Source: a bacterium
Lineage (GTDB): Bacteria > Bacteroidota > Bacteroidia > Flavobacteriales_D > Crocinitomicaceae
Assembly (NCBI GenBank): GCA_024742305.1
Contig: JANSYQ010000001.1
Location: forward strand, 124,001-188,000
DNA length: 64,000 nt
Direction: 5' to 3'
Position numbers and translations under genes: made by a program. This document shows positions 21,499 through 26,294 of this stretch, one piece after another. Numbering within the stretch: the first letter of the stretch is position 1; the number at the start of each line of letters is the position of its first letter. Under the pieces are notes generated by a model. It ran no database searches and was not told where the DNA came from. It saw only the letters and a list, made by a program, of their open reading frames with translations.

Positions 21499-21741
21499 CT
21501 AGTTCATAAGTTGTTCAATTTCTCGACATAAAGCCTCGTCCTTTTCGGTGATGGCATCGGCATCGTGCGTTATTATGTTCAAATGCAGCTTATTATAACG
21601 AATATCCATATCGGCATGGTGTTGCATGTCATCTGACACTTTAGCAATTTTCAGCACGAATGCGGCAAGCTCTGTTTGATTTTTAAACGTAAGCGTGGTG
21701 CTTATTCCACTTTCTGAGGTATTCCAATTAATTGAGTTCAT
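21499..21741 (-). CDS. phhB: Pterin-4a-carbinolamine dehydratase
   Basis: The protein is 80 aa, slightly shorter than the usual 95-110 aa. It dehydrates the 4a-carbinolamine formed from tetrahydrobiopterin by aromatic amino acid hydroxylases, so the cofactor can be recycled. The family signature is clear: DDMQHHADMDIRYNKLHLNIITHDADAITEKD, given here only as its key parts, with the catalytic His pair (HH) near residue 41 and THDA near residue 58. It lies 57 bp downstream of phhA on the same strand, so the two form a hydroxylase/recycling operon. Confidence 0.9.
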   Translation of the reverse strand: MNSINWNTSESGISTTLTFKNQTELAAFVLKIAKVSDDMQHHADMDIRYNKLHLNIITHDADAITEKDEALCREIEQLMN

Positions 21742-21798: not shown

Positions 21799-22536
21799 TT
21801 ATTTACTACTTTCAATTCCCGACTTTTTGCGGCTCCATTGCTCGGCAACCTTCAAAATGGACTCGAACAACTGCTCAAAACTTTCGATCACTACATATTT
21901 TGACTGCATAACATCCGTTCGAAACGCCGTTTGCATGACCTCGTCCATATCGAATGGTACAATGGGAATTTCACCAGAAATACTCGATATCGATTCTCCG
22001 AATGACGAGGCTATTCCTGCGCCGTAAATCTTCCATCCATTTTGCTGAATGAGTCCAAACTCGATCGTAAACCAGTATAAGCGCTGTAACATTACTACCC
22101 GCTCTGGACTGTCCAAAACCGTGCAACCCAACTTTCCAAACTCGTGCGCAAAATCAGAGAAAATTGGATCGCTCAATAATGGAACATGACCAAAAATATC
22201 GTGGAACATGTCCGGTTCCTCGAGGTAATCCAATTGCTCCATCGTTCTTAACCAAGTAGAAGAACAAAATTTCTTTTCAGCAAGCAACTGGAAAAAGTCC
22301 TCTACGGGAATCAAACCCGGAACGCAATGAATTTCCCAGCCTGTACTTTGCTGAAACCATACGTTAATCTCATCAAAATTCGGCGGTGCATTTGGGTGCA
22401 GCACGGGTTGCATGCGTTCCAGTGCCAACATGTATTCATCGCACGCTTTATCCTGTAAGTTCTCCTTTTGGCGCTCAAAAAGTGTTTTCCACACCAAAAA
22501 ATCTTCGTCTTTGTACTTTTTAAAATCCTGTTTCAT
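21799..22536 (-). CDS. phhA: Phenylalanine-4-hydroxylase
   Basis: The protein is 245 aa, typical of the monomeric bacterial enzyme. It converts phenylalanine, O2 and a tetrahydropterin to tyrosine. The iron ligands are visible: two His in DMFHDIFGHVPLL near residues 112-117 and the Glu of YWFTIEFGLI near residue 158. The pterin-loop region PGLIPVEDFF and LDYLEEPD are also typical. It is co-transcribed with phhB. The start is 5 nt after the T-run of an intrinsic terminator and about 70 nt after a 19-codon leader ORF with four consecutive Tyr codons, so expression is probably controlled by tyrosine-dependent attenuation. Confidence 0.96.
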   Translation of the reverse strand: MKQDFKKYKDEDFLVWKTLFERQKENLQDKACDEYMLALERMQPVLHPNAPPNFDEINVWFQQSTGWEIHCVPGLIPVEDFFQLLAEKKFCSSTWLRTMEQLDYLEEPDMFHDIFGHVPLLSDPIFSDFAHEFGKLGCTVLDSPERVVMLQRLYWFTIEFGLIQQNGWKIYGAGIASSFGESISSISGEIPIVPFDMDEVMQTAFRTDVMQSKYVVIESFEQLFESILKVAEQWSRKKSGIESSK

Positions 22537-22541
22537 ACGTC

Positions 22542-22575
22542 AAAAAAAAAGCCCGATTCAATAATTGAACCGGGC
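22542..22575 (-). terminator. Attenuator terminator (segments 3:4) in the phhA leader
   Basis: On the minus strand GCCCGGTTCAAT (22575-22564, segment 3) pairs with ATTGAATCGGGC (22562-22551, segment 4) with a single non-standard pair, followed by nine Ts (22550-22542). No leftward gene upstream needs a terminator here, because the next gene is divergent. Transcription coming through can therefore only be that of the phhA leader. Confidence 0.9.
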
Positions 22576-22602
22576 CGTTAATACCTTTTATAAAGCACTA
22601 CA

Positions 22603-22662
22603 CTACATCTCCGATTCACCGAGGTGAAAACGATAATAATAGTATGTGTTCTGCTTTTGCAT
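22603..22662 (-). CDS. Tyrosine-rich leader peptide of the phhA-phhB operon
   Basis: A 19-codon ORF reads MQKQNTYYYYRFHLGESEM and ends in TAG. Codons 7-10 (22644-22633) are TAC TAT TAT TAT, four consecutive tyrosines, and a Phe codon comes two codons later. The ATG lies 4 nt after a TACATTTG promoter box, so the mRNA may begin at or next to this AUG. The stop codon falls just past segment 2 of the predicted attenuator, as in classical amino-acid leader peptides. The peptide itself is unlikely to have a function; ribosome position on it would be the signal. Confidence 0.8.
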   Translation of the reverse strand: MQKQNTYYYYRFHLGESEM

Positions 22663-22666
22663 GGTT

Positions 22667-22694
22667 CAAATGTAGCATTTTTCCTTGAAGACAA
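22667..22694 (-). promoter_or_regulatory. Promoter of the phhA leader (TTG-N17-TACATTTG)
   Basis: The -33 TTG is at 22694-22692 and the -7 box TACATTTG at 22674-22667 on the minus strand, with 17 nt between. This fits the Bacteroidota consensus TTG-N17-23-TAnnTTTG. The first base after the usual short spacing falls at or beside the leader ATG (22662). Confidence 0.75.
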
Positions 22695-22756: not shown

Positions 22757-23068
22757 ATGCGATTGCTACAAATATGTGTGCTTCTGCTTGGGGTTAACTT
22801 GTTGATACCTACCATTGCCTTTCATTTCATGGACGTGGCATCTGACGATGTTGTCTGTGAACTTATCGAGGATTTCGATGAGGAAGAGGAAGATGGGGAA
22901 ACCAACAAGTCCTTAGAAGACGCATGTGTCCATCACGTTTGGAAGGACCAAATCGATTACTCCATCCGAGAGCAAATCTCCTACGAGGCCTATCCAGAAA
23001 ACAATCTTCATTTACGTTGCATCCACCTTGAGGTACAAACGCCTCCTCCACAAAATACAATGAGTTAA
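22757..23068 (+). CDS. Small secreted acidic protein of unknown function
   Basis: The protein is 103 aa from the ATG at 22757. The frame is open from 22685, but that start would lie upstream of the -7 box. The N-terminus MRLLQICVLLLGVNLLIPTI is a signal peptide or anchor. It is followed by a short acidic run (EDFDEEEEDGE) and a polar region with HHVW and two cysteines. I do not recognise the family. The gene ends 72 bp before a SulP transporter gene on the same strand, so the two may be co-transcribed. Confidence 0.6.
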   Translation: MRLLQICVLLLGVNLLIPTIAFHFMDVASDDVVCELIEDFDEEEEDGETNKSLEDACVHHVWKDQIDYSIREQISYEAYPENNLHLRCIHLEVQTPPPQNTMS

Positions 23069-25118: not shown

Positions 25119-25640
25119 ATGAAACTATTCTTCTTTATTATCACAGTTAGCTTAGGGACTGTTCTTGTGTCATGTAATCAACAAGAACACCAGGAAAATG
25201 CCATGCTGCAGCAAATGTCGGGTAAGTGGCGATTGAACCGGATAACCAATTTGGAAGATCATTCTTATGAGGTTTCGACGAACTTATATTCTCCGCGGAT
25301 TACCATAGAAAAGACAGATCTGCATTGGGATGAGACCTACTACGAAGGTTTTTCAACCATCAACCTAAAAAAGAAAACTGTAGGAACAGGAGAGTACGAA
25401 TGGGTAGAGGATTCGGAAGGGAACAGTTGTTACGTTGAAATTATGGAAACGACTTACACTACGCCTATTGCCTTCTTTTACGAAGCAAAATCTCCGGAAA
25501 GCTTGCAGAATGACCCCGACCGCGACAGCAGCTTTCGTTCTATTACGTTATCGAATATTCACTTCGAAAACACCCACATGATTTGGACGGGATTTGAAAA
25601 TGGAATTGAGTATGAATACCACTTCTCGAAAACCGAATAA
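25119..25640 (+). CDS. Lipoprotein of unknown function
   Basis: The protein is 173 aa from the ATG in front of MKLFFFIITVSLGTVLVSCN. The open frame reaches back to 25008, but that extension is unlikely because the lipobox (LVSC, Cys at residue 18) needs this start. The mature part resembles small lipocalin-like Bacteroidota lipoproteins (MSGKWRLNRITNLEDHSYEV ... FRSITLSNIHFENTHMIWTG), a pattern of alternating beta strands. No enzyme motif is seen. It would be anchored in the inner or outer membrane. Confidence 0.75.
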   Translation: MKLFFFIITVSLGTVLVSCNQQEHQENAMLQQMSGKWRLNRITNLEDHSYEVSTNLYSPRITIEKTDLHWDETYYEGFSTINLKKKTVGTGEYEWVEDSEGNSCYVEIMETTYTTPIAFFYEAKSPESLQNDPDRDSSFRSITLSNIHFENTHMIWTGFENGIEYEYHFSKTE

Positions 25641-25727
25641 GCAATTTTTTCTTTTCAGGAAATCGTTTGTAAGTCAATGGTGGACTTAGTTTATCCAAAA
25701 TCACGAAAACTCTTCAACGCAATTACC

Positions 25728-25744
25728 TGCCTGCCGGACAGGCA
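25728..25744. repeat. GC-rich inverted repeat (REP-like)
   Basis: TGCCTG-CCGGA-CAGGCA lies in the gap between two lipoprotein genes. It looks like the small CCGGCAGG-type palindromes scattered in Bacteroidota genomes. A related GCCGGCAGGC fragment is at 34671-34681. Confidence 0.5.
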
Positions 25745-25829
25745 CGGTGCGTTTTTGTTTCTTTGCATTCATTGGTTTTTGAAAAAAATAATATGTACAT
25801 TTTCCTATTAATTTACCCAACCCAAAAAC

Positions 25830-26294
25830 ATGAACCTTAACATCTACAAAACGCTGCTTCCACTAGCACTTCTTGCACTCCTAACCTCTAGTTGTGCCAG
25901 CACAAGATCTTACGGTAAAAAATATCCGGAACAGCTACATAAAGAAGTGGACTTTAACATGTCTCTTGCAGATTTTAATTCGTTGAAAGGAACACAAACT
26001 TCTGATATGAAAGATGATTCTTTTCGTTGGGTGTATCTTGAATCCATCGAGGATGAGAAGATGACGGATATTGTCTACTATTTCGATAAGGATGGAGATC
26101 AACCGCTGTACGAGATGATTTTCATCTACAAAGATACCGTGGCTCGCAACGAAGCCGCCGACAAATTACTCGGTGCACCTAATGATGGCGAGGAGTGGCG
26201 TATTGTGCAAGAACCATACACACTTACCGCATGGAAGTATAAAAATAAGCTTGTAATGGCTGCACTTATTCCGAATACAGAGTGGGACGAATAA
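25830..26294 (+). CDS. Lipoprotein of unknown function
   Basis: The protein is 154 aa. The signal sequence ends in a lipobox (LLTSSC, Cys near residue 22). The mature region is mixed acidic and aromatic (SFRWVYLESIEDEKMTDIVY, KDGDQPLYEMIFIYK) with no motif I recognise. A TACATTTT box at 25795-25802 could be its -7 element. It ends 1 bp before the stop of the convergent aldehyde dehydrogenase gene. Confidence 0.75.
   Translation: MNLNIYKTLLPLALLALLTSSCASTRSYGKKYPEQLHKEVDFNMSLADFNSLKGTQTSDMKDDSFRWVYLESIEDEKMTDIVYYFDKDGDQPLYEMIFIYKDTVARNEAADKLLGAPNDGEEWRIVQEPYTLTAWKYKNKLVMAALIPNTEWDE

Follow-up and report, generated by a model that had tools for sequence, protein, structure and literature searches.

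phhA lies on the minus strand of the 64-kb stretch of DNA analysed here (the window) and codes for a phenylalanine 4-monooxygenase by family (Table 1). Its score against NCBIfam TIGR01267 (phenylalanine 4-monooxygenase; E 1.5e-78, 263.4 bits) is just below the cut-off of 264.75, therefore the substrate of PhhA is assigned from the family. The next gene, coding for a phhB-like pterin-4a-carbinolamine dehydratase, probably belongs to the same operon. phhA is separated from a divergent ORF (ATG near 22757) by a complete leader. The source genome (4.09 Mb, 99.86% complete) has a Fluviicola MAG as its closest named relative among the best 80 of 587, with 80% identity.

The leader can be read directly from the sequence. 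A predicted promoter is followed by a short ORF with four Tyr codons in a row, a hairpin (segments 1 and 2) located just after these codons and an intrinsic terminator formed by segments 3 and 4. Segment 3 can alternatively pair with segment 2. The latter starts 14 nt past the last Tyr codon, and the ORF ends 8 nt beyond it with a stop codon at 22605-22603. The nine-T tract of the terminator is followed by five nucleotides and the phhA ATG at 22536. The initial annotation had listed the promoter, the 19-codon ORF with its Tyr run, the 1:2 hairpin, the 8 bp 2:3 pairing, the terminator with nine Ts and the stop codon just past segment 2. This description is correct for every element, base for base, with the ORF confirmed by translation and the 1:2 hairpin present in the minimum free energy (MFE) fold. 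The fold of the stretch 22668-22540 is more stable than those of 200 shuffled sequences (z -4.2), and the 1:2 region of the window has z -1.69 against its shuffles.

Table 1. Features of the phhA locus; positions are those of the window.
Feature	Position	Strand	Basis
Predicted Bacteroidota sigma-A promoter, TTG (-33 type)-N17-TACATTTG	22667..22694	-	Sequence; -7 box at 22674-22667
Predicted +1 at the A of the leader AUG (leaderless transcript)	22662	-	Inferred from the 4-nt gap and the published -7 position
Leader peptide ORF, 19 codons, ATG at 22662, MQKQNTYYYYRFHLGESEM, stop TAG	22603..22662	-	Translation; Tyr-dense ORF in 83/174 loci
Four consecutive Tyr codons TAC-TAT-TAT-TAT, predicted stall site	22633..22644	-	Sequence; Tyr densest of 20 residues across loci
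1:2 hairpin core UUCAC(CUCG)GUGAA	22615..22628	-	MFE folds, with more pairs outside the core
Segment 2, antiterminator 5' arm UGAAUCGG	22611..22618	-	Pairs with segment 3 over 8 bp (shuffle p 0.02)
Segment 3 CCGGUUCA, common to antiterminator and terminator	22566..22573	-	Sequence and pairing search
Intrinsic terminator, hairpin 22576-22550 (3' arm is segment 4) and T9 22550-22542	22542..22576	-	-17.3 kcal/mol
phhA, phenylalanine 4-monooxygenase by family	21799..22536	-	PF00351, E 4.2e-44
phhB-like pterin-4a-carbinolamine dehydratase, next gene, probably same operon	21499..21741	-	PF01329, E 1.9e-17

Tyr-rich ORFs and terminators upstream of phhA

We gathered 220 loci with phhA. They came from named contigs, where the best 80 of 587 relatives were kept, and from genome draws at the order and class levels. 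Among them, 187 were distinct and had enough upstream DNA, 174 coding for the short form of the hydroxylase and 13 for the long form. In the order draw 69 of the 101 phhA-positive genomes were read at phhA, and in the class draw 72 of the 107; the remaining phhA-positive genomes of these draws included fragments, weaker matches and long-form matches. A leader was called when an ORF of 8-40 codons, starting with ATG and having at least three Tyr in five residues, was located within 250 nt upstream of the gene.

Such an ORF is present in 83 of the 174 distinct short-form loci versus about 1.1% of 3480 dinucleotide shuffles; the loci are related by descent, so these counts are not independent events. 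Eighteen of the 34 families sampled through the genome draws have the leader, and in the window's own family it was found in 30 of 38 loci. Among the 91 short-form loci lacking an ATG-started leader by the rule, 18 have a terminator. Ten loci counted as leader-negative (L012, L017, L027, L028, L029, L057, L058, L091, L142, and L149) possess both a terminator and a Tyr-bearing ORF, which has a GTG or TTG start or sparser Tyr. Since the rule accepts ATG starts only, 83 of 174 is likely an undercount. The long-form hydroxylases (L209-L221), which have an open frame of about 590 aa in most cases and are common in other Bacteroidota families, had no Tyr leader by the same rule (0/13). phhA genes closely similar to that of the window also occur in records labelled Glaciecola amylolytica (L038, CP034120.1) and Actinomyces viscosus (L027, CALPVI020000127.1), both of which are probably mislabelled.

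By the same density rule, Leu comes next after Tyr with 31 of 174 loci, followed by Phe (6), His (2) and Trp (0); the shuffle null was computed for the Tyr rule, so the counts for the other residues are raw. Because Phe-dense ORFs precede phhA in only six loci, we argue for Tyr as the signal and reject Phe in this role.

In 81 of the 83 leader-bearing loci, versus 6 of 415 shuffles, a terminator hairpin of -10 kcal/mol or lower that runs into a T-tract lies between the leader stop codon and the gene. The counts below for terminators, pairings and promoters are drawn from these 83 or 81 loci. It could be supposed that an ordinary intrinsic terminator simply precedes phhA and that the Tyr-rich reading frame arose by chance, as intergenic terminators are common, A+T-rich DNA contains many Tyr codons, especially TAT, and the terminator is also found in some leader-negative loci. 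However, the frequency of the ORF in shuffles is far below that in the real loci, and the leader rule was satisfied at just 2 of 284 other ORF starts in real DNA, none of which had a terminator too (this control comprised mechanically called ORFs of at least 120 aa from the flanks of loci L002-L081). In addition, both Tyr codons are used in the 81 leaders (TAT 253 times, TAC 63 times), and the pairing between segments 2 and 3 is locus-specific, as described below. A chance ORF combined with a chance terminator was thus rejected by the shuffles and the other ORF starts, and we find this explanation barely credible.

Alternative pairings

The 1:2 region is more stable than its shuffles (mean z -2.5, with 75 of 81 loci below -1), and in 70 of 81 loci at least half of segment 2 is paired with upstream RNA. 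For the best 2:3 helix the median length is 6 bp; taken singly, this helix reaches p 0.05 in 37 of 81 loci and p 0.01 in 13, and in some loci, e.g., L030, L046, and L137, it is no better than in shuffles. As this helix is picked as the best one, we used an own-versus-other test, in which the segment-2 region of each locus was scored in the same way against the terminator arms of other loci. The arms vary enough for this, with 58 distinct cores in 81 loci. The mean rank of the own arm is 0.24 on the 58 distinct arms (p 3e-8) and 0.26 for all 81 loci, 0.5 being expected in both cases. By this measure, the antiterminator follows each locus's own terminator.

Paired changes within the 2:3 helices are consistent with this. 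One position has C-G in 39 cases, T-A in four and T-G in one; the next outer position has C-G in 22 and T-A in six, while inside there are G-C (41), G-U (7) and A-U (10), although these counts lean to pairing because they were taken on chosen helices. The distance from the last Tyr codon to the start of segment 2 is 14-17 nt in 44 of 81 loci and 9-23 nt in 73, with a median of 16 nt. The comparison of phhA upstream regions suggested in the initial annotation has yielded a conserved Tyr-rich ORF, a terminator behind nearly all such ORFs and matching antiterminators in relatives.

Stable folding of the 1:2 region in most loci would also be compatible with a leader RNA that binds a ligand (tyrosine, phenylalanine or pterin) as a riboswitch or T-box, the ORF being incidental. 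No Rfam family, T-box included, matched at the gathering score anywhere in the window, so known RNA families were rejected for this leader. Moreover, it is the Tyr codons and the complementarity that recur among loci, while the terminator arms differ. We consider a ligand-binding RNA very improbable.

Predicted promoter and proposed control of phhA

The gap between the -7 box and the leader ATG in the window is exactly 4 nt. The -7 box spans positions -12 to -5 in Flavobacterium psychrophilum (PMC9723704, partial text) and F. johnsoniae (PMC6847099, partial text), which together with this gap places the predicted +1 at the A of the leader AUG. In 61 of the 81 loci, an exact TAnnTTTG precedes the leader ATG at a distance of at most 40-45 nt, versus 3.4% of mononucleotide shuffles. 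The box and the first in-frame ATG are 4 nt apart in 25 of these 61 loci and at most 10 nt apart, corresponding to a predicted 5' UTR of at most 6 nt, in 50 of them. The null for the exact 4-nt spacing is 26%, which is an unfair test with the called ATG held fixed, and we give no p-value for leaderlessness. No TTG conserved at a single fixed spacing further upstream was seen across the leader-bearing loci. We predict a leader mRNA with no 5' UTR or almost none. Such a start would be unusual, since leaderless mRNAs constitute 5.5% of those mapped in F. psychrophilum (PMC9723704, partial text) and 87% of predicted leaders in F. johnsoniae are longer than 10 nt (PMC6847099, partial text).

All the parts of a classical attenuator can be recognised here: tandem cognate codons, the 1:2 hairpin, the mutually exclusive 2:3 pairing, the 3:4 terminator and a spacing compatible with a ribosome. 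We hold it to be highly probable that a ribosome-mediated transcription attenuator sensing charged tRNA-Tyr controls phhA and, probably, also the pterin dehydratase gene that follows. For phhA, relief of termination by tyrosine shortage had been proposed in the initial annotation; the preference of segment 2 for its own terminator arm and the stability of the 1:2 region across loci support this reading. RNA polymerase would start at or beside the leader AUG, with a ribosome following it. When Tyr-tRNA is plentiful, the ribosome would run to the stop codon and cover segment 2, permitting segments 3 and 4 to form the terminator, and transcription would end before phhA. When Tyr-tRNA is scarce, the ribosome would halt on the Tyr codons and mask segment 1, leaving segment 2 free to pair with segment 3, so that no terminator forms and PhhA is made. 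PhhA produced under tyrosine shortage would then convert phenylalanine to tyrosine. If the ribosome is taken to cover about 12-15 nt beyond its A site, the distances from segment 2 to the Tyr codons and to the ORF end in the window fit this footprint. From this layout we predict that the ORF is translated, that its translation is coupled to transcription, that ribosomes stall on it and that a lack of tyrosine raises PhhA.

The attenuator might also work with a broader signal, either general slowing of translation or, in some genomes, tyrosine together with tryptophan. Leaders mixing Tyr and Trp do exist in L085 (1330-1389), L091, L092, L095, and L098 (e.g., MKKNYTYWYFNCVHGTSML), but Trp-dense ORFs were found in none of the 174 loci by the rule that gives 83 for Tyr, and the leader of the window has no Trp. 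A broader signal is therefore considered unlikely. The loci with mixed leaders form a sub-group of one family, and the phhA proteins behind them have a distinct N-terminus, MKTYEII... or MKSYEMI...; dual sensing is possible in this sub-group.

We also looked for signs of a wider Tyr regulon. Neither of the two synthetase genes with PF00579 in the own genome, which we take to be TyrS and TrpS, is preceded by a Tyr leader. Within the window, ORFs of at least 100 aa have no further Tyr leader with a terminator upstream. A wider regulon was rejected as far as these two genes and the window are concerned. On the plus strand of the window, at 25600-25830, a hairpin and a short ORF in which Phe residues cluster precede an ORF starting at 25830; they are probably due to chance.

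The Escherichia coli pheA and pheST attenuators have the same layout as the phhA leader: a leader ORF with cognate codons, alternative pairings and a terminator before the gene. The AroR leader of Corynebacterium glutamicum was reportedly first described by Neshat in 2014. The pheA and pheST systems are likewise leader-peptide attenuators, but they sense phenylalanine and control a gene of the chorismate route or a synthetase gene (PMC11802643, partial text), whereas the phhA leader has Tyr codons and its target is a hydroxylase turning one amino acid into another. AroR, located before aroF, has a Tyr codon at the control site (Phe-Tyr-Phe) and in contrast to the proposed phhA leader is unaffected by Tyr availability and responds to phenylalanine (PMC11802643, partial text). 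It is the only described leader with a Tyr codon at the control site that we met in the portions of the open-access literature covered.

Within the same phylum, leader-peptide attenuation was suggested for amino-acid operons of F. psychrophilum, which shares the general mechanism, and a structured element before pheA was named there (PMC9723704, partial text). Unlike the case of the phhA leader, neither tyrosine nor phenylalanine is mentioned in the main text of that work. Leader-like ORFs are mentioned in Bacteroides thetaiotaomicron (PMC7366714, partial text). No Tyr leader appears in the available parts of PMC2965389 and PMC1262725, which deal with other groups, and the word "tyrosine" is absent from the available part of PMC4833913. 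Among the matches listed from the open-access literature, seen in partial texts, there was no Tyr-responsive attenuator and no attenuator of any kind for phhA, in agreement with the initial annotation. The element is real and widely conserved, its proposed mechanism is classical, and its specificity and setting are new within the literature searched. Our best reading is that it adds two twists to classical attenuation, with tyrosine as the sensed amino acid and a leader mRNA predicted to be leaderless or nearly so.

Tyrosine supply and the likely role of PhhA

Neither prephenate dehydrogenase (TyrA, PF02153) nor prephenate dehydratase (PheA, PF00800) had a match in the own genome, while 14 of 14 controls were positive for each. 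Chorismate synthase is present. Given the lack of PF02153 and PF00800 matches, tyrosine formation from chorismate looks unlikely, phenylalanine probably comes from outside, and PhhA fed by imported phenylalanine is the likely tyrosine source of this genome. The combination of phhA with an absent prephenate/arogenate dehydrogenase is the supply-type gene set and fits the role of tyrosine maker given to PhhA in the initial annotation.

At the same time, a 4-HPP dioxygenase gene of the own genome directly follows a distant homogentisate-dioxygenase-like gene (L222:253-2583), so PhhA could also serve breakdown. The latter gene scores 68 bits, the NCBIfam cut-off being 511. Scanned alone, its ORF matches HgmA_N (E 2.7e-13) and HgmA_C (E 1.6e-4), though HgmA_C was not found in the own-genome search at E 0.001. 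Judging from these genes, tyrosine breakdown is possible in this genome.

TyrA is the usual tyrosine-making enzyme. Its occurrence was compared between genomes with and without the leader. A match was called strong at PF02153 E below 1e-20. In the class draw, none of the 23 genomes with leader-bearing phhA had a strong TyrA match versus 16 of 34 others (p 4.6e-5; this and the following p-values are inflated by kinship among the genomes), and among the genomes at least 90% complete the figures were 0 of 17 versus 16 of 24. By the curated cut-off TyrA was present in 1 of 23 versus 16 of 34 (p 4e-4), and with any PF02153 match at E 0.001 accepted the figures were 7 of 23 versus 17 of 34 (p 0.18). 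The contrast thus varies with the match definition used. Partial matches scored as absent under the strong definition belong to Balneolaceae L041, L048, L052, and L060 (E 1e-10 to 1e-12) and to L081/G740 (E 4e-6).

In the named set, strong matches occur in 7 of 22 leader-bearing genomes versus 14 of 26 others (p 0.15), or in 8 of 22 versus 18 of 26 by the curated cut-off. The leader and TyrA are found together in six Psychroflexus and in Flavobacterium gelidilacus of this set. The order draw (1 of 35 leader-bearing genomes versus 0 of 34 others with a strong match) has too little TyrA for a contrast: of 399 genomes in the order, 39 have a PF02153 match at E 0.001, 18 exceed the cut-off and 13 are strong. 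Family f27 includes one leader-bearing genome without a TyrA match and four other genomes with strong matches. A pterin dehydratase homologue is present in 34 of the 81 leader-bearing loci versus 6 of the 93 other short-form loci, the flank lengths being different. As judged by these searches, the same arrangement is found in many Bacteroidota, frequently in those without the usual tyrosine-making enzyme.

PAH as a tyrosine route is known from Dyella, Legionella, and Echinicola, where TyrA is either missing or present alongside (GapMind; PMC7311316, partial text). In contrast to the phhA leader described here, no regulation is reported for these cases in the available part of that paper.

Overall, we lean towards the view that a Tyr-specific attenuator class with leaderless leader mRNAs exists across Bacteroidota and marks phhA genes of the supply rather than the breakdown type, and that in bacteria which have lost TyrA, the hydroxylation of scavenged phenylalanine took over as tyrosine source, as it is in animals, and was placed under starvation control through Tyr-tRNA. 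If so, leader-peptide attenuation would have tyrosine as a further sensed amino acid, and this in a phylum for which little on such control was found in the literature searched; starvation control would act on an interconversion step and not on the pathway from chorismate. The leader may serve as a sequence mark separating supply-type from breakdown-type phhA without growth tests, and the predicted leaderless start would provide a defined site at which the coupling of transcription and translation in Bacteroidota can be tested.

One of the loci with a non-ATG leader, L017 of Psychroflexus curvus, has the leader VINTNIYYYYYPLLNFRIG with a GTG start; a strong TyrA match is present in this genome, as in the other leader-keeping Psychroflexus genomes.
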